Shown in pieces: positions 1,920-30,115 of a stretch of 54,499 bases of DNA; position 1 is the first letter of the stretch; each line of letters begins with the position of its first letter. The notes beneath the pieces are model-generated. The model had not been told where the DNA came from. It was given only the letters and a program-made list of their open reading frames with translations, and made no database searches. The stretch is from a virus, in the IMG/VR virus record IMGVR_UViG_3300028786_000010, positions 1-54,499 of that record. The stretch is one strand, 5' to 3'. The position numbers were made by a program, and so were the translations under genes.

Positions 1920-4900
1920 TCAGGCCGAGTCGCGCCAGGCGAACGCGGGTTCGCTGGCTTCGGCGACGATCGGAATCCCGTACAACTCCCGGCTCATGCA
2001 GCGCACCAGCGTCTCGGTGGCCTCGGCGGCGTCCTGCTCCGGCACCATCGCCACGATCTCGTCATGGACGGGCAGGACCACACCGCCGCCCCACCGGGTC
2101 TTGTCCCAGTCGAGCAGTCCGTCCACGAGCAGCTCACGGGCGGTGCCCTGGATGCAAAAATTCGGTGATTTGTGGGGGTACTGCCGGTCCAGGTGGATGA
2201 TCCGGCCGGCGTAGGTGGGCATCTGAGTTGCGCCACCGCGTACGGCCCGTTTCACCTCATCGGCCCAACCCACGTAGCTGGGTGCGACCTGCTGCAGCGA
2301 CTCGATGATCGAAACCATGACCTGTTCGGGCACGCCGACCTGGCGGGCGAGGGACGCCGCGCCGCCGCCGTAGGCCCAGCCGAACACGCCCCGCTTGGCG
2401 GTGTAGCGGTGCGACTTGGTCCAATCCGGGCCGAAGGCCTTGCCGGCCACGATCGCGTGCAAGTCGTACCGGCTCTGCCATTCGCGCTTGGTCATCTGGC
2501 CCGACTCCACAAGCGCCTCGGCCTGCGTGCCCTCCATCAGCATGCGGATCAGGTCCGGGTCCTGACTCAGTGCGGCCATCACCCGGATCTCCACGCCGGA
2601 GAAGTCGGCGCTGATCAGTACATGGCCGGGGTCGGCGGTGATGCACGCGCGGACGCCGCCTTGGCGCGGGAGCTGCTGCAGGTTGGGCCGGACACAGGAC
2701 ATACGGCCCGTGTCGGTTCCGAGCGTGTAGACGGTGGGTCGGGCCCGGCCGTCGCCGCTCTCGCACAGCACCCTGTAGGGCTCCAGGAACGTGGTCAGCA
2801 CCGTCTCGTGGTGCCGGTACTCCAGGACAGCTGAAATCAGCCCACCGGCGGGCTCAGGAGTGTCACGGAGGCCCTCGAGCACACCGGCCGCCACGCTGGC
2901 CTGGCCGTCCGGGTGCCGTGTGCTCGGCGTGGTGCGGGGCAGCGTCACCCCGAGCTCCGAGAGCCGGTCGGCGAGCTGCCGGTCGCTGCCGGGGTTCTCC
3001 ACGCCGAACTGCCGGACCCTCTCGGCCGCGGCGAGCATGGCCGGGGTGTGCTCGTCCTGCAAGCGGCGCACCTGGTCGTGGTCGACTCGCACGCCGCGGT
3101 GAGTCACTCGCGCGGTGATCCGCTGGACGGCACGCTCGCGGCTGACCACCTCGGCCGGCGGCTGCGGTAGCCGGGTGGCCAGCGCCGCGGTGTCGAGCAC
3201 GTCACTTGCCGCGTAACGGATCATCGTGCTGCAGCTCGAGTCGACTTGCGCCCAGCCGGACCGCTCGAGCGGCGTGACGGCCTTGGTGTCGGTCAGCCAG
3301 CCGTTGACCTTGAACAGCGTGGCCCGCGCCTTGTCCGCCTCAGGTGCCGTTGCCGAGCCGTTCAGGACCGTCCCGGCGAGCTGCTTGAGGCCGGGATCCG
3401 AGCCTGTGCTCTGCGGGTCCGCCAGTTTGGCCGGGATCACCGTGTCATGCATCCGCTCCCATGCGGACTCATCAGTCAGCCCGGCGGCGGCCAGCGGCAC
3501 CAGGTCGGCTGTGGCCGAGTGGGCGTGCAGCACCGGAGCGCCGGCCAGCGCGGCCCTGATCACCTCAGCCTGATCCGGGTCGGCCGCGTCGAGCACCACC
3601 GCGGCCTGCTCGTCACCGAGCTGCACGGTCCGCAGCGCGTAGTCAGCGTGGCCCACCGGGTAGCCGGAGGTCTCCACATCGACCGTCAGCGCGCCCGATC
3701 GCGCTACAGCGGTGGCCACCTCGGCACCGGCCCGGACGGTGTCGATGGCCACGATGGCGCCGTCCCGGCCGACCAAGGCCGGAAGCGGCACCTGCTCGCC
3801 GGCGGCGGCCTGCCGAGCGGCCTCCTTCTCCGCTGCCTTCTGGGCCGCCTTGGTGTAACGCCCTGTAGCCGTGTTGGTCCGCCGAGCGGGCTTGGGGGCC
3901 GGTTCCGGTACGGGGAAGAGCCCGTCGGCGGGTGCCGGATCGCAGGCGGGTTCAGGCGGGTTTGCCGAACCCAACCCGCCTGGCGTGTTTACCGAGGTAG
4001 GGGCCTGTTTGTTGATAGGTCCCAGGCGGGTTGCGGGTTTGGCCGGTATTCCCCCCGTATTTTCTCTACTACTTACTTGTTGAGAATTTTTGTCTATCCC
4101 CCCAGTAAAACTATCTAAACCCGCCTGGGACCTATCAGAAAGTGCGCCCTGAGCTGGGGTTTCAGCCCCAGGCGGGTTTGCTCGGAAACCCGCCTGGAAC
4201 CCGCCTGAACCCGCCTGGAACCCGCCTGAACCCGCCTGGAACCCGCCTGAACCCGCCTGGGATCCACCCGGGAAGGTCATGAACTGCGCCAGGTTCGGCG
4301 GGGGTGACGAGGGTGCCCCGAACCCGCCGTTCAACACGGAGAGTGGCCGGTACTTGATTCCGGCGTGCGGCTGTACCGGGTACCCCAGCTCGGTCAGCCG
4401 GCGGCCGAACGCGGTCTCCGACGGCAGCGACAGGCGCCGGTAGCGGGGGTGGTCCTGGTGCCAGCGGGCGAACTGCTGGCTGTAGAGGATCCGGCCTGGT
4501 GTGCCCGGCTCAGTCGGCCCCGTGCACGTCTCGACCCACTCCTGGATCGGGTCCTGCCCCTCGGCGATCTCGTCGGCCAGCCCGCGGATGCTGACGGGGG
4601 CGGCGGAAGTGGCGGCGCTGTCCCGGTCGGCGAGGTATGCGGCGGCTTCGCGCATCATCGCGGCCAGGATGCCCGGCGCCTCGGCGATCAGGCTGTTGCC
4701 GAGCAACTGGAGCCGAAGCGGCCGGACGATCTCTTCCGGGGTGTCGCACGGAATCAGGCGTACACGGGCGCGCAGCGCGGGATCGGTCAGATTCGGCTCA
4801 GGGTTGGTCGTCATGACCAGGGTGTGGTTGGGCTTGAAGGTGACCGGGTTGGCGCGCATCGGCCGGCCGGTCAGCGAGCCGCCGCCGGTGAGCTGCTTGA

Positions 4901-6743
4901 GCCGCTCAGTGGCATCGTGCCCGCGTTTCGGGCCCTCGTCGATGAACGACAGCCGGCGGCCGCGCAGGTCGTAGATGATCGTGTCGTGTGAGCCGTCCTG
5001 CGCGCTGAGCAGCTTCGGGTTGGCGGCGTGCGCGTAGCTGCCGAGCACTTCGATCAGCATCTCGACCAGCGACGTTTTACCCGACCGTTCCCGCCCGTAC
5101 AGGATCGGCAGGGCCGCGTCCGGGTAGCCGGTCAGGGCGACCGACAGCACCCGCATCGCCCACGCCCGGACCTCCGGATCTGGCATCACCGCGGCCACGA
5201 ACGCGTCCCAGCGCGGCGTCGGCACGGTCGGGTTCGGTGCGCACAGAGCGGTACGCAGGTGCGGGGTATTGGGGTCGATCCACATCGCCGGCGTGGGAAT
5301 CTCCCCAGACGCGCGCAGGTCCCACGGGACGCCACCCGCCCACAGAACCTCGGGATTGGTGTCCAGGTCGGTGATACGCAGGGAGGCCGGGTGGTCACTG
5401 CGGATGATGGCCCGCAGCTTCCGCCCGACCTTCCCTGTCCCCTGGCTGCTCATGAACACCGCGCGCCGGGCCGCCTGCCAATGCAGCTCCGTACGCAACG
5501 AGGCGTCCTTGGGAACCGGGGTCTCACCCAGCGGCATCAGCTCGGCCAGCAGCGAGATGACCCAGTCGGACATGTCGTCGCCGCACTCTTCCCAGACGTT
5601 GCGCTCCCGCTTGATCCACAGCCCGGCGTCCTTGGCGTAGCGCAGCGCGGGATACATCCGGTACGCCACCGCCTTCGCCAGGCCCTGGTCAGAGGTGTCG
5701 CCGGCCGGGTCGAACGGGTCGACGCCCAGCGCGCTGAACACGCTCCAGGGCGGTTCAGCCGGAGGCTCGTCACCGGGCGGGGTCCCCTCACCCTCGCGGG
5801 CCACCGCCTGGGCCATCTCGGACTGGGTGCGTTCCTGCTCGGCGGTGAACACCCAGAACGGCCGGACGGCGCCGTCGTCTAGTCCCTGCTGGATCCACAG
5901 CAGGTCGTCGGTGTCCGGGCTGCCCCAGACGGCCGATACCGCCTTCTCGAGGCGCTCGCGAGCGTCCAGCTCGTCCAGATAGCCGCCGCCGACGTAGCCA
6001 CCAAGGGTCAGGGCAGCGCGCAGCAGCACCGTACGGAAGCCCACACCTGACCCCGTGGTCCAGGTGGCGACCTCGTTCAGTTTCCCTTCGATGGCCCTCT
6101 CGGCGGCCGGCGCGGACTGTGGCTCCCGCTGCGTCAGGAAGTCCTGCCACCACTGCGGACCGCCGACGCTGCGCACCGTCTCGGCGGACGCCCGCAGTTC
6201 CCGGATCCGGGCCGCCAGGTTCGCACCGGAGGTGTCCTGGCCGTTCAATCGGCTCAGGTCGGGGACCTGCACCCATCCGTACGGCACCGGCTCACCTGTG
6301 ACCGCGCTGACCCGCACGGTGGGCGCGATGAACGCGAATCCCCGACTCGACCCGTCCGGCACGCCGCCCTTGATGTCGACACCTGGGAGCACGTTGTCCC
6401 GGCTGCCGACACCGAGCGACGCGATGAACGCGTGTGCGCCGCCGGAAGGGGTCGCTGCCAGCCCGTAGAACCGGGGGGTCATCCCGTTCAGCACGGACGG
6501 ATCGCCGCCGTTGCGCGGGTCGAAGTCGACCAGGTCCAGCCCGCAGCCCATCACCGCGCACAGCGCCAGACCCGGACGCCACAGATCGACGACGGCCGGG
6601 TCCGGTGCAGTTCGCTCCCACCGCGGCGGCGGCCGGAATCCGGTCTTGGCGGTGCTGTCAGGATGCGCGATGAAGATCGGGATGCCGGACGTCGCGAGCC
6701 GGCGCGCGACGTCCAGAGCGGCAGCGATCTCTTCAGGGGTCAC
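1920..6743 (-). CDS. All-in-one replicase: Prim-Pol primase + SF3/D5 helicase + 3'-5' exonuclease + family A DNA polymerase
   Basis: 1607 aa in a single frame, starting at GTG 6743 (GTGA overlap with the upstream stop; AGGGGTG upstream). Residues 10-165 are an AEP/Prim-Pol domain with LVDFD (D73, D75), GGAH (H104) and DIKGG (123-127). Residues 340-800 are a D5/SF3-type helicase: Walker A GRERSGKTS (550-558), Walker B LSFIDEG (598-604), sensor MTTNPEPN and a following arginine-rich segment. Residues 824-985 are a low-complexity linker (SGGFQAG repeats, then Pro/Lys-rich). Residues 1015-1195 are a DnaQ-like exonuclease with DVE (D1022, E1024), D1080 and YAASD (D1181). Residues 1200-1607 are a PolA-type polymerase: motif A SADFSGVEIR (D1380), O-helix around K1450-Y1458, motif C PVHDE (H1560, D1561). 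All catalytic residues are present, so both synthesis and proofreading are expected. These functions are normally encoded by separate phage genes. Confidence 0.93.
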   Translation of the reverse strand: MTPEEIAAALDVARRLATSGIPIFIAHPDSTAKTGFRPPPRWERTAPDPAVVDLWRPGLALCAVMGCGLDLVDFDPRNGGDPSVLNGMTPRFYGLAATPSGGAHAFIASLGVGSRDNVLPGVDIKGGVPDGSSRGFAFIAPTVRVSAVTGEPVPYGWVQVPDLSRLNGQDTSGANLAARIRELRASAETVRSVGGPQWWQDFLTQREPQSAPAAERAIEGKLNEVATWTTGSGVGFRTVLLRAALTLGGYVGGGYLDELDARERLEKAVSAVWGSPDTDDLLWIQQGLDDGAVRPFWVFTAEQERTQSEMAQAVAREGEGTPPGDEPPAEPPWSVFSALGVDPFDPAGDTSDQGLAKAVAYRMYPALRYAKDAGLWIKRERNVWEECGDDMSDWVISLLAELMPLGETPVPKDASLRTELHWQAARRAVFMSSQGTGKVGRKLRAIIRSDHPASLRITDLDTNPEVLWAGGVPWDLRASGEIPTPAMWIDPNTPHLRTALCAPNPTVPTPRWDAFVAAVMPDPEVRAWAMRVLSVALTGYPDAALPILYGRERSGKTSLVEMLIEVLGSYAHAANPKLLSAQDGSHDTIIYDLRGRRLSFIDEGPKRGHDATERLKQLTGGGSLTGRPMRANPVTFKPNHTLVMTTNPEPNLTDPALRARVRLIPCDTPEEIVRPLRLQLLGNSLIAEAPGILAAMMREAAAYLADRDSAATSAAPVSIRGLADEIAEGQDPIQEWVETCTGPTEPGTPGRILYSQQFARWHQDHPRYRRLSLPSETAFGRRLTELGYPVQPHAGIKYRPLSVLNGGFGAPSSPPPNLAQFMTFPGGSQAGSGGFQAGSGGFQAGSGGFQAGFRANPPGAETPAQGALSDRSQAGLDSFTGGIDKNSQQVSSRENTGGIPAKPATRLGPINKQAPTSVNTPGGLGSANPPEPACDPAPADGLFPVPEPAPKPARRTNTATGRYTKAAQKAAEKEAARQAAAGEQVPLPALVGRDGAIVAIDTVRAGAEVATAVARSGALTVDVETSGYPVGHADYALRTVQLGDEQAAVVLDAADPDQAEVIRAALAGAPVLHAHSATADLVPLAAAGLTDESAWERMHDTVIPAKLADPQSTGSDPGLKQLAGTVLNGSATAPEADKARATLFKVNGWLTDTKAVTPLERSGWAQVDSSCSTMIRYAASDVLDTAALATRLPQPPAEVVSRERAVQRITARVTHRGVRVDHDQVRRLQDEHTPAMLAAAERVRQFGVENPGSDRQLADRLSELGVTLPRTTPSTRHPDGQASVAAGVLEGLRDTPEPAGGLISAVLEYRHHETVLTTFLEPYRVLCESGDGRARPTVYTLGTDTGRMSCVRPNLQQLPRQGGVRACITADPGHVLISADFSGVEIRVMAALSQDPDLIRMLMEGTQAEALVESGQMTKREWQSRYDLHAIVAGKAFGPDWTKSHRYTAKRGVFGWAYGGGAASLARQVGVPEQVMVSIIESLQQVAPSYVGWADEVKRAVRGGATQMPTYAGRIIHLDRQYPHKSPNFCIQGTARELLVDGLLDWDKTRWGGGVVLPVHDEIVAMVPEQDAAEATETLVRCMSRELYGIPIVAEASEPAFAWRDSA
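4013..4137. repeat. Perfect 20-bp inverted repeat flanking the AT-rich core
   Basis: The left arm 4013-4032 reads TGATAGGTCCCAGGCGGGTT and the right arm 4118-4137 is its exact reverse complement. The 85 bp between them are poor in G and rich in A/T, notably around 4053-4117. Each arm contains one copy of the 10-mer iteron. Confidence 0.85.
4168..4197. repeat. Perfect 12-bp palindromic hairpin built from two iterons
   Basis: CCAGGCGGGTTT (4168-4179) is followed by a 6-base loop and its exact complement AAACCCGCCTGG (4186-4197). It joins the inverted-repeat part of the origin region to the tandem array. Confidence 0.8.
4187..4259. repeat. Tandem iteron array, 7 copies with 10/11-bp spacing
   Basis: AACCCGCCTG starts at 4187, 4198, 4208, 4219, 4229, 4240 and 4250. 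Spacings alternate 11 and 10 bp, so the mean is 10.5 bp, one DNA helical turn, which puts every copy on the same face. The unit is also 21 bp, so it stays in frame and encodes SGGFQAG repeats in the replicase linker. Confidence 0.9.
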
Positions 6744-7886: not shown

Positions 7887-9668
7887 CTAGCTGACCTTTC
7901 GTAGGGTTGACCCGCCGAGCAGTTCGCTGACGATCCGCTTGTCCTGCAACAGATCGGCAAGCTGCCCGGCCTTCTCGTGGAGCACGGCACGGATGCGCGT
8001 GTCGATGGTCTTGGCGGCCACCACGTCGATGACCTCGATGGAGTCGTGGATCTCGCTGCCGATGCGGTGACAGCGGTCCTCCGCCTGCGAGGCCTCTACG
8101 AGCGACCACGGACGCTGGAGGAACACCACAGTCCGCGCGGCGGTCAGGGTGAGCCCAACCCCGCCGGCGCCGGTGGTGACACAGAGCAGGTCGAACTTGC
8201 CGCGCTGGAACGCCTCGACCGTGTCGGTGCGCTCCCGCATGGACTGCCCGCCGACGACGTAGCCGACCTGGTGCCCGGCCTTGGTGGCCAGCTCGCCGGC
8301 CAGCATCATCAGCTGACGGCTCGGCGCGAACGTGACGACGGGCTCGCCCGGCCGCTCGGCCAGCACCTCGAGCAGCGCGTCGACCTTCCACGACGGAGCC
8401 TTCAGTCGCACCTCGACGTGCTCGCGGTCCTCGCCATTCTCGTCCCGTTCGGTGGTGACGCTGATGTCGGCCGCGGCGCTGGCCAGCTGGTTCAGCCGGG
8501 TCAACTGGGCCAGCACCGACATGACCGACAGCTCCTGCCCGTCGGGCAGTTGGGCGATCATCTGGTTTTCGAGCTCGTCGTACGCCTTGCGGTACGCGGT
8601 CGGTAGCTCGACCGTGCGCATGCTGTAGACCTTGGGCGGCAGCTGAGACAACACATCGGCCTTGGCGACCCGCCGGTGCTGGCCGAGCAGCGTGGTGCGC
8701 ATCTCCCGCTCGGTGGCCATGTTCAGGCCGATGACTTTGGCGCTGTAGTCGCCGGGGATCGTCTGGCAGTAGCGGGCCTTCCAGCGCTCCCCGGACGGCC
8801 ATGCCAGCGGCGCCAGGGCTTCCAGGGTGGGCCAGAGGTCGCCGGGGTGATGCGTGATCGGCGTGCCGGACAGCGCGACGAAGTTGTCCGCTCGCTTGGC
8901 CAGGCGCCGGGCGGCCATCGACCTGGCCGAGTGCGGGGTCTTGATCAGGTGGCACTCGTCTACGACCAGCGATCGCGGAGCCACCCGGGCCAGTGGCCCA
9001 CCCTTGGCCGAGTCCCGGGCCGCAGTCTCGTAGCTGGAGACAAGTACATGCGCCTGGCTGCCCTCAGGACGGTCTGCGAGGCGCCGTCGGTGCTCCGGAC
9101 TACCGCTCCAGGCGTTTACACGCCAGCCGGGCGCCCAGGTCTGCACCGCGGTCACCCAGGGGTCGACGACAGATCTCGGCGCGATGACGACCGTCGGAGT
9201 GACTTCGTACCCCTGGGCCGCGCGCTCGAGCAGACCGAGGATCGTGGTGATCGTTTTTCCGGTTCCGGGCTCGTCGAACAGCAACGCCCGGCCGAGCGCC
9301 CCGATCATCAGCGCGCCGTCCACCTGGTACGGCCGGGGTGTCAGGCCCTCCGGCAGTTCGATGGTCAGCGCGCCGCCGGACGGGGTACGTAGCACCGTCT
9401 CGGTCATCAGCCACTGCGTCAGCCGCGGCCCCGGCCGCCACGCCGCGCCGAACAGGCTTGCCAGCTGCACCACGGCCGCCCAGGTCGCCGGCAGCAGCAG
9501 CGCGCCGGGCGGGTCGCTGGGCTTGATCAGCGGCGTCATGAGCTGGATCCGCGCGGCCATCTGCGCGATGGCGTAGTCCGTACCGGTGCCGATGAGCACG
9601 ATGGTCTTGCCGTCGGCCGTGAGCTCGCCGTTCAGGACGGCCGGAGGCGCGTCATTCGTAGTGATCAC
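7887..9668 (-). CDS. SNF2-family DEAD/DEAH-type helicase
   Basis: 593 aa from GTG 9668, preceded by GGAGGTGCCCA. Walker A is DEPGTGKT (132-139) and motif II is DECH (237-240), followed by ALSGTPI (motif III). The C-terminal RecA lobe carries TTGAGGVGLTLT (motif V) and EDRCHRIGS (motif VI, QxxxRxxR type). The shape is that of the compact SNF2 proteins common in siphophage replication clusters, which translocate on duplex DNA without strand separation (family knowledge). It overlaps neither neighbour but is one base from the RuvC-like start. Confidence 0.9.
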   Translation of the reverse strand: MITTNDAPPAVLNGELTADGKTIVLIGTGTDYAIAQMAARIQLMTPLIKPSDPPGALLLPATWAAVVQLASLFGAAWRPGPRLTQWLMTETVLRTPSGGALTIELPEGLTPRPYQVDGALMIGALGRALLFDEPGTGKTITTILGLLERAAQGYEVTPTVVIAPRSVVDPWVTAVQTWAPGWRVNAWSGSPEHRRRLADRPEGSQAHVLVSSYETAARDSAKGGPLARVAPRSLVVDECHLIKTPHSARSMAARRLAKRADNFVALSGTPITHHPGDLWPTLEALAPLAWPSGERWKARYCQTIPGDYSAKVIGLNMATEREMRTTLLGQHRRVAKADVLSQLPPKVYSMRTVELPTAYRKAYDELENQMIAQLPDGQELSVMSVLAQLTRLNQLASAAADISVTTERDENGEDREHVEVRLKAPSWKVDALLEVLAERPGEPVVTFAPSRQLMMLAGELATKAGHQVGYVVGGQSMRERTDTVEAFQRGKFDLLCVTTGAGGVGLTLTAARTVVFLQRPWSLVEASQAEDRCHRIGSEIHDSIEVIDVVAAKTIDTRIRAVLHEKAGQLADLLQDKRIVSELLGGSTLRKVS

Positions 9669-9712
9669 TGGGCACCTCCGATTCGAGTTGGTTAGGTCTG
9701 ATCGGGTGCTGC

Positions 9713-9748
9713 CCGGCCCGGGCGCCGGGGAAGGCACGTCCGGGCCGG
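9713..9748. terminator. Perfect 9-bp hairpin downstream of the SSB-like gene
   Basis: CCGGCCCGG (9713-9721) pairs with CCGGGCCGG (9740-9748), loop 18 bases, in the 92-bp gap between the SSB-like stop and the SNF2 start. There is no U-run. It may protect the 3' end of the SSB message or reduce read-through to the helicase. Confidence 0.45.
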
Positions 9749-9760
9749 ACAGTCACCGGA

Positions 9761-10681
9761 TCAGCTGGGCTGGCCGGTGAGCTTGGCGAACAGCGCGGCC
9801 TGCTCCGCGTTGAATCCGGCCGGAGCGGCGCTGACCGGTGCCGCCTGCTGCGGCTGAGGCGCCGGAGCAGGGGCCGCGGCCGGAGCGGGCTGAGGCTGCG
9901 GTGCGGCCTGCGGCGCCACCGGTTGCGGCATGGGCTGCTGCTGGTACACCGGCTGAGCCTGCGGAGCGGGTGGCACCGCCTGCTGGTGCACGACCGGCTG
10001 ACCGTTGGCCGTGGACATCACCGGCGCGGACTGCGGCTGTGCGGTGGTTTGGCCCGCACCCTGCGGCCGGGCGTACTCGACCCGGTAGACGTACGCCGGG
10101 TTGAATCCCCCCGGCACCGGCCGCGTGGCGACCAACGTGACACGGATCCACGCGCCGCCCTCGGGTGCCCCCGCTGGAGCGCCCGCTTCGGACATGGCCC
10201 GTGCCAGGTCGTCGCGGGCCTGCCCCTTGCACCACCAGCCGGCCTGACCGTCGGGCAGTTCCTGCGAGGGCTGGCACAGCATCGGCACGACCATGACGAA
10301 CTTCGGCCGGCCGTCCTTGTAGGTCTGGACCCGTCCGTCCCGGTCGGTCTGCGCGCGGACATCGGCGTCCGTGAGCGGCCGGGCCACGAAGCCCTCGTAG
10401 AAGGTGCCAAGGGGCTTGTCCTTGAACTTCCATGACGGGCCGCCACTGCTGCTCGGCTGCTGGTAGAAGCTGTCCAGCGACCCGGTCGGCAGTGGCGGGG
10501 CCGGAGGAGCAGGCGGGGCGTACTGCTGCGGGTAGGCCTGCGGGTAACCCTGCTGCGGCATCGGCGGGGCGTAGGCCTGGGGCTGCTGGGGGTAGCCCTG
10601 CGGCTGCTGCGGATAGGCCGGCTGCGGGTAGGTCTGCGGCTGCTGCGGGTACTGCGGCGCCGTCGGGTACTGAGGCTGCAT
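9761..10681 (-). CDS. Putative single-stranded DNA-binding protein with low-complexity Pro/Gln arms
   Basis: 306 aa; the ATG at 10681 has AAGGAGAACC in good position. The first ~70 residues are YPQQPQ-type repeats, and residues ~210-295 are Pro/Gln/Ala-rich. Between them lies a folded domain (KFKDKPLGTFYEGFVARPLT, RPKFVMVVPMLCQ, AWIRVTLVAT) that resembles OB-fold phage SSB proteins. The C-terminus ends in a short conserved-looking tail (AEQAALFAKLTGQPS). Position between a Cas4-like nuclease and a helicase supports an SSB role. The two disordered arms are unusually long. Confidence 0.6.
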   Translation of the reverse strand: MQPQYPTAPQYPQQPQTYPQPAYPQQPQGYPQQPQAYAPPMPQQGYPQAYPQQYAPPAPPAPPLPTGSLDSFYQQPSSSGGPSWKFKDKPLGTFYEGFVARPLTDADVRAQTDRDGRVQTYKDGRPKFVMVVPMLCQPSQELPDGQAGWWCKGQARDDLARAMSEAGAPAGAPEGGAWIRVTLVATRPVPGGFNPAYVYRVEYARPQGAGQTTAQPQSAPVMSTANGQPVVHQQAVPPAPQAQPVYQQQPMPQPVAPQAAPQPQPAPAAAPAPAPQPQQAAPVSAAPAGFNAEQAALFAKLTGQPS

Positions 10682-10694
10682 TTCTTGGTTCTCC

Positions 10695-11495
10695 TTAGTT
10701 GGTGGGCCCGGGACATCCGGGTCCGTTGTCGCGCTTTGACTGGGGTCGATAGAAGGGGCAGAAATAACACTCGTCATCGTCAGCGGCAGTGGGAATGTCA
10801 GTGAATGTCTTCAGTCCGGAAATGAGTTCTTCTGCCATGGCCTTGCGTCGGTCGGTGAGCCTGAATACCTCCTCGATGAGCGCGTCGTCCTGCGGCCCCG
10901 TGGCTCGTTCCCAGACATAGAGCCCGTCCAGGCTGGCCGCGGTGCGGGGGTAGGCAGCCAGCGCGACGCGCGTCACCGGCAGCCCCATGACCCGGAACCC
11001 CTTGCCGTAGAGCAAGAGCTGAATGACGTATTTGATCGGTGGACCGCTGGCGCTGCGGATTTTTGCCATCGACGATTCGGCCAACACCTTGTGATCGACG
11101 ACGGCCGTTTCTTCCGCGTCGTAAAGGTCGCCCGTTCCGGAATGGTCGGGGTGCGGAACCACTCGTTGTTCGGCGAGCCACCGGGCCCGGCCGTGGCGGA
11201 CGTTGTCCGCGGTGAACGCGTCCGCCAGCCAGGCGTGCACCGCCGTTCCGACCACGGATGGCCACGGATCGGCCACATGGTTGGTGACCGGCAGCCCGGC
11301 CAGCTTGCCCACCACCTGCCGGTCGCACGGCACGCCCAGCTCACTCGGGCCGAGGTGCCGTTGCAGCGTCCGGGCCGAGCCGTTGGCCTGCTCGTGCACC
11401 ACCCGGCGCAGCTCGCCCGCGTACCGGGACGCCCAGGCGGTGTTGCCCTCCAGGCGTGCCGGCGCCGCGCTCATGAAGTCGGCCACGCTGGTCAC
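10695..11495 (-). CDS. Cas4/RecB-like PD-(D/E)XK exonuclease with probable Fe-S cluster
   Basis: 266 aa from GTG 11495 (GTGA overlap). Nuclease residues: H87 in GTAVHAWL, D123 in GTGDLYD, D134 and K136 in VVDHKV, and Q158 in IQLLLYG. Cysteines C57, C243, C246 and C261 match the one-plus-three pattern that holds a 4Fe-4S cluster in Cas4 and AddB. Phage members process DNA ends during recombination (family knowledge). No CRISPR array or other cas gene is present in the window, so a CRISPR role is not indicated. Confidence 0.82.
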   Translation of the reverse strand: MTSVADFMSAAPARLEGNTAWASRYAGELRRVVHEQANGSARTLQRHLGPSELGVPCDRQVVGKLAGLPVTNHVADPWPSVVGTAVHAWLADAFTADNVRHGRARWLAEQRVVPHPDHSGTGDLYDAEETAVVDHKVLAESSMAKIRSASGPPIKYVIQLLLYGKGFRVMGLPVTRVALAAYPRTAASLDGLYVWERATGPQDDALIEEVFRLTDRRKAMAEELISGLKTFTDIPTAADDDECYFCPFYRPQSKRDNGPGCPGPTN

Positions 11496-27989: not shown

Positions 27990-28031
27990 GGGGCGCGGCC
28001 GGGTCCACCCCCGGACCTGTGGCCGCGCCCC
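27990..28031. terminator. Perfect 11-bp hairpin upstream of the TraB-like gene
   Basis: GGGGCGCGGCC (27990-28000) pairs with GGCCGCGCCCC (28021-28031). The loop can form an inner GGTCC/GGACC stem. It separates the tiny-protein cluster from the translocase gene and could set their relative expression. Confidence 0.5.
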
Positions 28032-28060
28032 CATCGCCCTGTGAGAGGAGCGGCACCAGC

Positions 28061-30115
28061 ATGACAGACACGCTGCCCGAGGCGTACGAGCCGGGACCGC
28101 CGCGGCCGGACGACGCCGAGTCGTACGTGGAAGAGCCCACGGTCCGGGTAGCGGTCACGTCGCGGCCCGAGACTCCCACCGTCTACGCGACGGTTACTCA
28201 ACTGGCGGAGAGCAAGCGCCGGCCGATCATCCCCGGCTGGATGCGCACTGCTGACGCGCGCAAGACCTACTTCAAGCAGGTGGCTGGCCTGGTCGGATAC
28301 ACCGTGGCGTTGCAGCTGTGGTTGTCGCCCCAGTACTTGGCCAAGACCGCGGTGTACGCGCCGTGGGGCATGCTGAAGCTGCTGGGCCGGCAGATCCGCT
28401 GGGCGGCGCACCCTGAGCTGACCAGCCTGATGCAGGCGGCTGCCGGCAAGAACGACCTGGATCACGGCCGCGGGTATGCCGCAGATGTGGCAGCAGCGCG
28501 CAAGGCCCGTTTTCTGGGTCTCGGCGCCGAGCTGGTCGCTGTCGCTGTCGCCGTGCTCGCGCTCAGGTTGCTCGCCCCTTGGTGGGCGCAATGGCTGGTC
28601 ATCGCGGTCGCCCTGCCAGTGTTCGCCCGAGTCGGCCGCCCGGTCGGCCAGCCGATTATCCAGCACGTGACGATCGGCAAGCGGTTCACCCGCCTCACCC
28701 AGGAGCAGGTCCGAGATGCCGTGGTGGCGTTGCGGCTGACCGGCTTGAAGAGCCCGGGTGATATCTCCTTTCCGCCGCCTGGTGTCCACGCGGATGGTCC
28801 GGGCTGGATGGCCCGTTTCGAGCTGCCGCCGGGCCTGATCGCCGCGGACGTGCTGGAGAAGCGGGACCGGTTGTCCGGTGCGCTGCGGCTGCCGATCGAT
28901 CAGGTGTGGCCGGAGGTCGGGCCGGAGCACCTGGCGCAGGTGGACCTGTGGGTCGGGTTCAAGCCGGCGTCGCAGATGGGTGACCCGAAGTGGGCACTGT
29001 CCAGCCCCAACGCTGTCACCAGCATCTTCGAGCCGAACCCGTTCGCCACCGACGCCCGCGGCCGGGCGATCGACGTCATCCTGTTCGAGCGCAACATCCT
29101 GATGGGTGGCCAGCCGGGCGCCGGCAAGAGCTTCGGCGCGCGGACGTTCGCGACGATCGCGGGGCTGGACCCGACATGCGAACTGAAGATCGCCGAGTTC
29201 AAGGGCGTCGGAGACTTCCTGGACATGGCGCCGCTGTGCACCGACTACGCCTGCGGGGTCGACGACGAGGCATTCGACATCGGCGAGGCCATCATCGACT
29301 GGGCCCTCGCCGAGTGCGAGCGGCGCGGCGCGCGGATCAAGAAGCTGCGGCTGAACGGCATCGCGCCTGACGGGAAGATCACCCCTGAGTTGGCTGCTCA
29401 GAAGGGTCTGGGCCTGCACCCGGTGTTCATCCTGATCGACGAGTTCCACGAGCTGCTGATGAACCGCAAGGGGGTGGCGGAGAAGTGTGAGCGGGTCATC
29501 CGCCGCGGCCGGGCGCTGGGCATCATCTTCGTGCTGGCCACGCAGATCCCGGACGCGAACACCATTCCCACCTCGATCACGAAGTGCGTGTCGGTGCGCG
29601 TGTGCATGTCGGTGGCGGACTGGCAGTCCAACGACCAGATCCTCGGCACCGGCGCCTACAAGCGGGGCCACAGCGCCACCATGTACCGCCCGGGTTTCGA
29701 CGCTGGCTGGGGCGTCATGCAGGGCCTGGTCCGCGACGGGCAGACCGGCAAGACGTACTTCCCGGACAAAGAGACCCGCGCGGCGATCGTCGAGCGGATG
29801 CGCGCCCTACGCGGCGGAGTGGTCGGCGACCAGGGTGAGCGGATCAAGGCACGGGACATGCTGGCCGACGCTCGTGCTGTCCTGCTGCCCGGTGAGGCCG
29901 GCGTGCCGTGGGGCGTCCTGGCGGAGCGGCTCGCCGGCCTGGCGCCGGAGACGTACGCGGGGATCACGGCGGACATGGTCCGGGAGGCGCTGAAGCGGTA
30001 CGACGTGCCCACCCAGGACGTCAAGGTGAAGGTCAACGGCGAGTGGACGACCGTCAAGGGCATGCGCCGCACAGCACTTGAGGCGGCGGAGGCCAAGCGT
30101 GCAATCGAAGACTGA
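28061..30115 (+). CDS. TraB/FtsK-SpoIIIE-like DNA translocase
   Basis: 684 aa from ATG 28061, with GAGAGGAG upstream. A disordered acidic N-terminus, a membrane-near region with hydrophobic segments at ~77-90 and 153-190, then a RecA-type motor with Walker A GGQPGAGKSF (349-358) and Walker B FILIDE (456-461). The ~70-residue C-terminus (PETYAGITADMVREALKRYDV) could be a winged helix for DNA recognition. In actinomycete conjugation one such protein forms a hexameric channel and moves double-stranded DNA (known). Size, membrane segments and the SpdB-like neighbour favour a TraB-type role over cell division FtsK. No relaxase is present, as expected for this system. Confidence 0.85.
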   Translation: MTDTLPEAYEPGPPRPDDAESYVEEPTVRVAVTSRPETPTVYATVTQLAESKRRPIIPGWMRTADARKTYFKQVAGLVGYTVALQLWLSPQYLAKTAVYAPWGMLKLLGRQIRWAAHPELTSLMQAAAGKNDLDHGRGYAADVAAARKARFLGLGAELVAVAVAVLALRLLAPWWAQWLVIAVALPVFARVGRPVGQPIIQHVTIGKRFTRLTQEQVRDAVVALRLTGLKSPGDISFPPPGVHADGPGWMARFELPPGLIAADVLEKRDRLSGALRLPIDQVWPEVGPEHLAQVDLWVGFKPASQMGDPKWALSSPNAVTSIFEPNPFATDARGRAIDVILFERNILMGGQPGAGKSFGARTFATIAGLDPTCELKIAEFKGVGDFLDMAPLCTDYACGVDDEAFDIGEAIIDWALAECERRGARIKKLRLNGIAPDGKITPELAAQKGLGLHPVFILIDEFHELLMNRKGVAEKCERVIRRGRALGIIFVLATQIPDANTIPTSITKCVSVRVCMSVADWQSNDQILGTGAYKRGHSATMYRPGFDAGWGVMQGLVRDGQTGKTYFPDKETRAAIVERMRALRGGVVGDQGERIKARDMLADARAVLLPGEAGVPWGVLAERLAGLAPETYAGITADMVREALKRYDVPTQDVKVKVNGEWTTVKGMRRTALEAAEAKRAIED

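Follow-up and report, generated by a model that had tools for sequence, protein, structure and literature searches.

The window analysed in this work is the whole stretch of 54,499 bases from the virus record IMGVR_UViG_3300028786_000010. As inferred from sequence alone, this record represents a temperate phage or a prophage, since an integrase, a portal protein, a terminase and a tail protein are encoded within it; no near match to its DNA was found by database search. The gene of main interest is a minus-strand open reading frame for a fused replicase, annotated in PHROGs as DNA primase / DNA polymerase, in which the Pfam families DUF5906, DNA_pol_A_exo1 and DNA_pol_A are matched, with D5_N remaining below the cut-off. 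The match to DNA_pol_A (PF00476) scores 154 bits against a cut-off of 34.3, by which the criterion for a family-A DNA polymerase is met, and the profile matches of the helicase (ASFV C962R, 2e-15; poxvirus D5, 0.013) meet that for a D5/SF3-type core. No Pfam domain was reported by the Pfam search across residues 651-1000 of the replicase, and the linker is of low complexity. At the search sensitivity used, none of the 3892 matching records from isolate phages covers 80% of the protein, and the helicase matches found in plasmids are every one below 60% identity. Elsewhere in the window, a SNF2-type helicase is encoded close to the replicase (7887-9737), and a 698-aa plus-strand open reading frame (28019-30115) shows a weak match, below the cut-off, to FtsK/SpoIIIE. 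The features of the replicase gene are as follows.

1920..6743, minus strand: fused replicase gene, an open reading frame of 1607 aa with Pfam and PHROGs matches
Residues about 11-325: primase region of the replicase
Residues about 326-735: D5-type SF3 helicase of the replicase
4326..4556, minus strand: winged helix, C-terminal in the helicase module, residues 730-806 (AlphaFold pLDDT 90, match to 1ka8); proposed origin-binding domain
4335..4373, minus strand: wing of the winged helix, residues 791-803, bearing the covarying P792, A794 and K797
4187..4259, plus strand: seven tandem iterons AACCCGCCTG, spacing 11,10,11,10,11,10 (mean 10.5 bp)
4169..4178, minus strand: oppositely oriented iteron whose start lies 18 bp from that of the tandem block, forming the conserved inverted pair
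4118..4137, no strand: right arm of the perfect 20-bp inverted repeat TGATAGGTCCCAGGCGGGTT; the arms pair at 20/20 bases
4118..4127, plus strand: iteron at the edge of the AT-rich core, within the right inverted-repeat arm, 51 bp from the iteron at 4169..4178
4033..4117, no strand: AT-rich core, 43.5% GC versus 68.1%; proposed unwinding element
4013..4032, no strand: left arm of the perfect 20-bp inverted repeat TGATAGGTCCCAGGCGGGTT, containing a minus-strand iteron at 4023-4032
3973..3982, plus strand: second-set iteron beyond the AT-rich core, exact AACCCGCCTG
3953..3962, minus strand: second-set iteron, exact AACCCGCCTG
3943..3952, minus strand: second-set iteron, exact AACCCGCCTG
3707..4325, minus strand: coding linker containing the putative origin, residues about 807-1012, limits from tblastn of the helicase and polymerase modules
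Residues 1000-1594: 3'-5' exonuclease and PolA of the replicase

The 10-mer AACCCGCCTG is present in 13 exact copies (9 forward and 4 reverse), all of them within 3943-4259, and no other exact copy of it is found in the 54,499 bases, while its backwards-read control word has no occurrence. If one mismatch is allowed, then just 3 extra sites are seen in the whole contig (at 23466, 23578 and 41256), and these scattered sites are no more than chance gives, the chance expectation at one mismatch or fewer being 5.4; the total of 16 sites was reached in 0 of 100 shuffles. When an iteron score was computed across 203 windows of the contig, the best value (13.0) was that of the array and the next region scored 5.4. 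A chance origin of the array is thus ruled out by the exact-copy count, the shuffles and the contig-wide score. The runner-up region of repeated words, which lies at 10147-10948, is far under the array in score. The lowest-GC 60-mer of the AT-rich core, which starts at 4058, is 31.7% GC, and nowhere else in the contig is the GC content that low. The GC skew of the contig showed nothing decisive. A first-pass annotation of this DNA had claimed that thirteen copies of a 10-mer (seven of them at 10.5-bp mean spacing), an AT-rich core and a perfect 20-bp inverted repeat all fall in the linker, and every part of this description held.

When the codons of the linker were resampled synonymously, a maximum of 6 copies of any 9-mer was obtained and 13 copies were seen in 0 of 1000 recodings; permutation of the codons inside the linker gave a maximum of 4 copies, and 13 were again seen in 0 of 1000. 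Because synonymous recoding never reproduces the 13 copies, these iterons are DNA sites that overlie the coding sequence of a linker, and the protein sequence fails to explain them. Of the 29 linkers from relatives that were recoded likewise, 26 hold more copies than almost any of their recoded versions, the observed count being matched in no more than 4 of 300, and three, viz. those of L017, L018 and L029, did not exceed theirs. The further claim of the first-pass annotation, that the protein sequence here looks dictated by DNA sites, is supported both by these recodings and by the conservation of the sites in relatives.

Scans of viral contigs and of genomes provided 58 distinct loci with this helicase, to which whole-genome searches contributed only marginally (4 of 397 genomes in one case and 2 of 394 in another). 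Each locus was tested for an array over 535 bases spanning the end of the helicase and the DNA that follows it, and a threshold score of at least 4.4 was reached by 45 of the 58 linkers as against 10 of 575 windows elsewhere in these loci. In all 56 loci having a downstream polymerase the reading frame runs uninterrupted through the linker into the polymerase, while the other two forward frames are open in 0 of 56. The repeat word itself varies by phage (AACCCGTCAC, AACCCGTCAT, AACCCGTCAG, AACCCTTCAC, AACCCTCCAG, AACTGTCCTG and others), and a common layout is found in which the tandem sites are 10-12 apart, the inverted site is at 17-19, the next site at about 50 and its neighbour at 8-9. A layout score of 5 or more was obtained for 33 of 39 loci compared with 4 of 780 shuffled words. 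In L030, L045 and L050, a spacing of 61-62, i.e. about one extra helical turn, replaces that of about 50, and L044, L105, L085, L087, L088, L091 and L094 deviate from the common spacing. The AT-rich core, strong in the window, is moderate in the relatives, where 25 of 39 linkers have their minimum in the lowest 5% of the windows of the locus, and the perfect 20-bp inverted repeat is not retained in L010 and L014, the two relatives whose linker DNA was inspected. Two peculiarities of individual relatives are also recorded, viz. a 9-mer (ACGGAACCC) present 10 times in L102 (2339-2869), with eight copies about 37-43 bases apart, and an interruption of the polymerase match by about 690 bases in L030 (9003-9691), where an intein or an insert in PolA is possible.

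The first-pass annotation had itself named related replicases with the same linker and no such repeats as an observation that would refute its reading, and the 13 of 58 linkers that are below the array score threshold bear upon this point. Four of them can be accounted for: in L093 the array lies further into the linker, past the 520-base reach of the scan, L096 is cut by the contig end, and L018 and L063 have kept a long AT-rich core with degenerate sites. For the remaining 9 sub-threshold linkers we have no explanation. In both L018 (8418-8840) and L063 (7428-7850), which contain few recognisable iterons and a very long AT-rich core, AGGTCAGACC is common to the core edge, and it is possible that it represents a second origin element.

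Eight distant relatives in which the helicase is unfused (25-30% identity) were also examined, L206 being a copy of L205. In 6 of the 8 (L201, L202, L204, L205, L207 and L208) the protein ends shortly past the wing, and in the same six an array and AT-rich DNA follow the stop codon at a distance of no more than about 340 bases. The array scores of these six loci are 5.8-8.0, compared with at most 3.2 in their other windows. The spacing in L201, L202 and L204 is about 50, 8, about 91 and 8, while the arrays of L205, L207 and L208 were judged mostly by score and not by exact layout; no stand-out array score was seen in L203 (3.6) and L200 (2.2). In four isolate phages with separate genes for the primase-helicase and PolA (Gack, SWEP2, SpecialK and BaileyBlu; 27-30% identity), no array is present between the two genes. 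Hence, these isolates should not be interpreted as showing the unfused state of the present system, which is shown instead by the loci of the L201 type. The layout of the latter is the PICI arrangement, and the simplest history would be one in which a polymerase gene became fused through the origin, although the direction of the fusion is inferred.

Covariation between the repeat words and the replicase was examined in 39 of the 58 loci, after exclusion of those that scored below 5 or had fewer than 5 sites at up to 1 mismatch, of L079 and L099 by hand (words out of register), and then of 2 near-duplicates; the word of L009 was placed into the common register by hand. Residue 797 ranks first among 442 helicase columns for iteron base 6, and residues 792 and 794 lead the same columns by MI, for bases 7 and 10 respectively, and come second by z, while none of 525 polymerase columns matches any of these three helicase residues. 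The pairings seen among the 39 loci are, for residue 797 and base 6, K with G (17 loci) and N with T (13); for residue 792 and base 7, H with T (17), and H with C never; and for residue 794 and base 10, R or K with C (21), E with G (3), M with T (3) and A with G (4). Exceptions occur, among others, at base 6 (K797 with T in L009, R with T in L086) and at base 10, where T794 is found with C in 2 loci and with G in 1. In a test of independent pairs, for which the tree was built without the winged helix, the mean number of agreeing pairs is 6.3 of 7 for base 6, 4.9 of 6 for base 7 and 5.8 of 6 for base 10, with 0 contrary; however, taken singly, the sign tests give p values of about 0.03 (0.06 for base 7), and the residue classes were defined post hoc. 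Between the sisters L027 and L028, bases 6 and 7 and residues 797 and 792 differ while base 10 and residue 794 are the same, and between the sisters L021 and L023 it is base 10 and residue 794 that differ. Further, four loci outside the derivation set (L112, L113, L166 and L167) all agree at bases 6 and 10, the agreement of L112 resting on a single close precedent, viz. L026.

The distribution of the arrays relative to the other modules of the replicase is also informative. Arrays are found with two kinds of N-terminal module, and in many loci the tblastn alignment with the window does not start until about residue 320 (322-336 in L011-L013). An array is present in L097, where the polymerase is just 28% identical over the matching part. 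On the other hand, arrays were not found in L032, L035, L036 and L037, the polymerases of which are 57-61% identical to that of the window and are attached to other helicases (L032, L036 and L037) or to none (L035). Due to these related polymerases without an array, and to the absence of covarying polymerase columns, the polymerase was rejected as the reader of the sites. Since the covarying residues are located in the helicase winged helix, and arrays occur with differing N-termini and not with related polymerases on other helicases, the winged helix at the C-terminal end of the helicase module, and mainly its wing, is indicated as the site reader, although no binding data are available. The suggestion of the first-pass annotation that the replicase binds its own gene as origin, through its Prim-Pol or its helicase, is thereby supported, with the winged helix of the helicase being favoured and initiation remaining unproven. 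Two separate observations concern loci with other helicases: in L041 a weaker cluster is seen (an 8-mer present 7 times), and the translation of L032 (5845-11559) contains an intein-like insert with Hint-like ends at the Walker-A region of the helicase part.

The model of the helicase (pLDDT 86) matches poxvirus D5/E5 with Z of about 25 and the SaPI5 primase-helicase (7ola) with Z 24.4 and an rmsd of 4.6 over 383. When the last 79 helicase residues were modelled alone (pLDDT 90), the top row among the VIA matches was 1ka8, the origin-binding domain of P4 (Z 8.5, rmsd 2.2 over 74), followed by ASFV PrimPol and RFX domains (RFX at ranks 3 and 4), rows within 1 being tied; Foldseek alone gave only a weak match that was not significant (E 0.2). 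By its predicted fold, this region meets the criterion of a C-terminal winged-helix origin-binding domain, the binding itself being inferred. In the AlphaFold model the wing strands are formed by residues 791-793 and 796-803, and residues 792, 794 and 797 are located in the wing. A wing-based code is physically reasonable because the wing of RFX1 reads the DNA major groove (PMC4333399). The pairing of K or R with G, of N with A and of E with C on the read strand is in keeping with common contacts.

Based on these results, we consider it very likely (probability about 0.85) that 3943-4259 is the replication origin of this phage, an iteron origin like those of P4 and the PICIs that is translated as a linker, its activity as an origin being inferred. 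What has been shown by computation are the sites, their geometry and conservation, their in-frame status, the covariation, the fold match and the unfused counterpart; the binding and melting of the DNA, the loading of the helicase, initiation and the direction in which the fusion occurred are inferences, and no replication or binding experiment exists. According to this proposal, the helicase module would bind the 10-bp iterons via its C-terminal winged helix, chiefly by the wing, with residue 797 reading base 6, residue 792 base 7 and residue 794 base 10. Several protomers would bind in helical phase, one per site of about 10.5 bp, in two sets around the AT-rich core, which would then open and permit the SF3 helicase ring to load there; the N-terminal primase would prime and the tethered PolA would extend. 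The array would have kept the P4/PICI position directly 3' of the initiator, and with the polymerase joined in frame behind it the origin would be read as a linker.

The main rival to this interpretation is that the iterons are indeed bound by the helicase module, and that this binding serves control (autorepression, handcuffing, copy number or a role like that of P4 crr) instead of, or besides, initiation, with replication starting elsewhere. In its favour, the covariation supports binding alone, and the replication of P4 is controlled by crr, a repeat locus in addition to its origin. However, no second iteron array was found in the contig, the lowest-GC place of the contig is enclosed by the array, and the unfused relatives place the array at the position of a PICI-type origin, and we therefore regard a purely regulatory role as unlikely. 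It is less likely still that the reader is a different part of the replicase (the primase or the polymerase) or a separate protein, such as a host factor or one acting in partition or packaging. Conserved spacing alone is compatible with any cooperative DNA binder, but the covarying residues sit in the helicase winged helix, nothing comparable is seen in the polymerase columns, and the arrays co-occur with different N-terminal modules and, in L097, with a highly divergent polymerase.

A different kind of explanation is that the array is a low-complexity protein repeat, in which slippage multiplied a GSGGFQA heptad and the DNA repeat arose only incidentally. It is true that the seven tandem copies are translated as a repeat of 7 aa (period 21 bp), and some copies may well stem from local expansion in this phage, the tandem block in the relatives being mostly of 2-4 sites. 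However, the iteron copies occupy both strands and different frames, the synonymous resampling contradicts such a reading for the array as a whole, and the relatives retain the sites yet encode other peptides (e.g. QDS, LEG and NPS). A protein repeat alone is rejected by the resampling, and this explanation is all but excluded.

A bolder interpretation can also be considered, which we favour only by a small margin. In this interpretation, these phages would constitute a replicon family with the initiator, the origin and the polymerase in one open reading frame, in which the linker is a captured and translated iteron origin of the P4/PICI kind, and replicon specificity is set by a code of three wing residues (797 with base 6: K-G, N-T; 792 with base 7: H-T; 794 with base 10: R/K-C, E-G, M-T). 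Closely related phages would then have switched to new and possibly mutually orthogonal origins by changes of 1-3 residues together with all of the iterons. Throughout a clade, one stretch of DNA would be under two constraints, viz. as a protein linker and as an origin, and a computed amino-acid-to-base code is offered for how an SF3 helicase initiator recognises its origin. The code is directly testable, as the sister pairs L027/L028, L021/L023 and L011/L033 provide natural variants. Further, the origin could be tied to the replicase in such a manner that recombination outside the gene cannot part them, and a stepwise change of replicon specificity, perhaps with phage incompatibility, is suggested.

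Both origins inside initiator genes (lambda O, Rep of pSK41/pT181) and the winged-helix binding of repeats by P4 alpha are already known, while in the open-access literature searched, which lacks most subscription papers, no report was found of an origin in a helicase-initiator/polymerase linker or of a wing code. The RFX1 DNA-binding domain (1dp7; PMC4333399, PMC4212688) resembles the present domain in being a winged helix; however, it belongs to a eukaryotic transcription factor and the likeness is one of fold only. In pSK41 (ori) and pT181 (dso), as proposed here, the origin lies within the coding region of rep, and the protein sequence that bears it is dispensable for replication (PMC5703833). 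The initiators of these two plasmids belong to families other than that of the present replicase and are not known to include an SF3 helicase or a polymerase fusion. The origin in lambda gene O (PMC4488673, PMC5043065) likewise consists of iterons and an adjacent A-T-rich segment within the coding sequence of the initiator that binds them, and the window meets this lambda-type criterion. However, lambda has four 19-bp dimer sites and O, which binds by its amino-terminal half, is neither a helicase nor a polymerase, whereas the sites in the window are 10-mers and the gene encodes a helicase and PolA, so that the criterion for the O family is not met. P4 alpha (PMC4234260; 1ka8) similarly combines primase and helicase in one chain and binds origin repeats (the P4 ori site is named in PMC6092414) by a winged helix, but its primase is of the bacterial (Toprim) type, no polymerase is fused to it, and the origin and crr of P4 lie apart. 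A close likeness in layout is to the PICI (SaPI-type) Pri-Rep and ori (PMC6092414; 7ola/7om0), with which the present system shares a matching SF3 primase-helicase fold. PICI origins are situated directly 3' of rep with two iteron sets around an AT-rich region (PMC6092414), and the two sets flanking the AT-rich region of the window, directly 3' of the initiator module, meet this P4/PICI-type criterion. The accompanying criterion, that the origin is outside the initiator gene, is not met, for whereas the PICI ori lies outside coding sequence, the array described here is inside the reading frame, which continues through it into a family-A polymerase.
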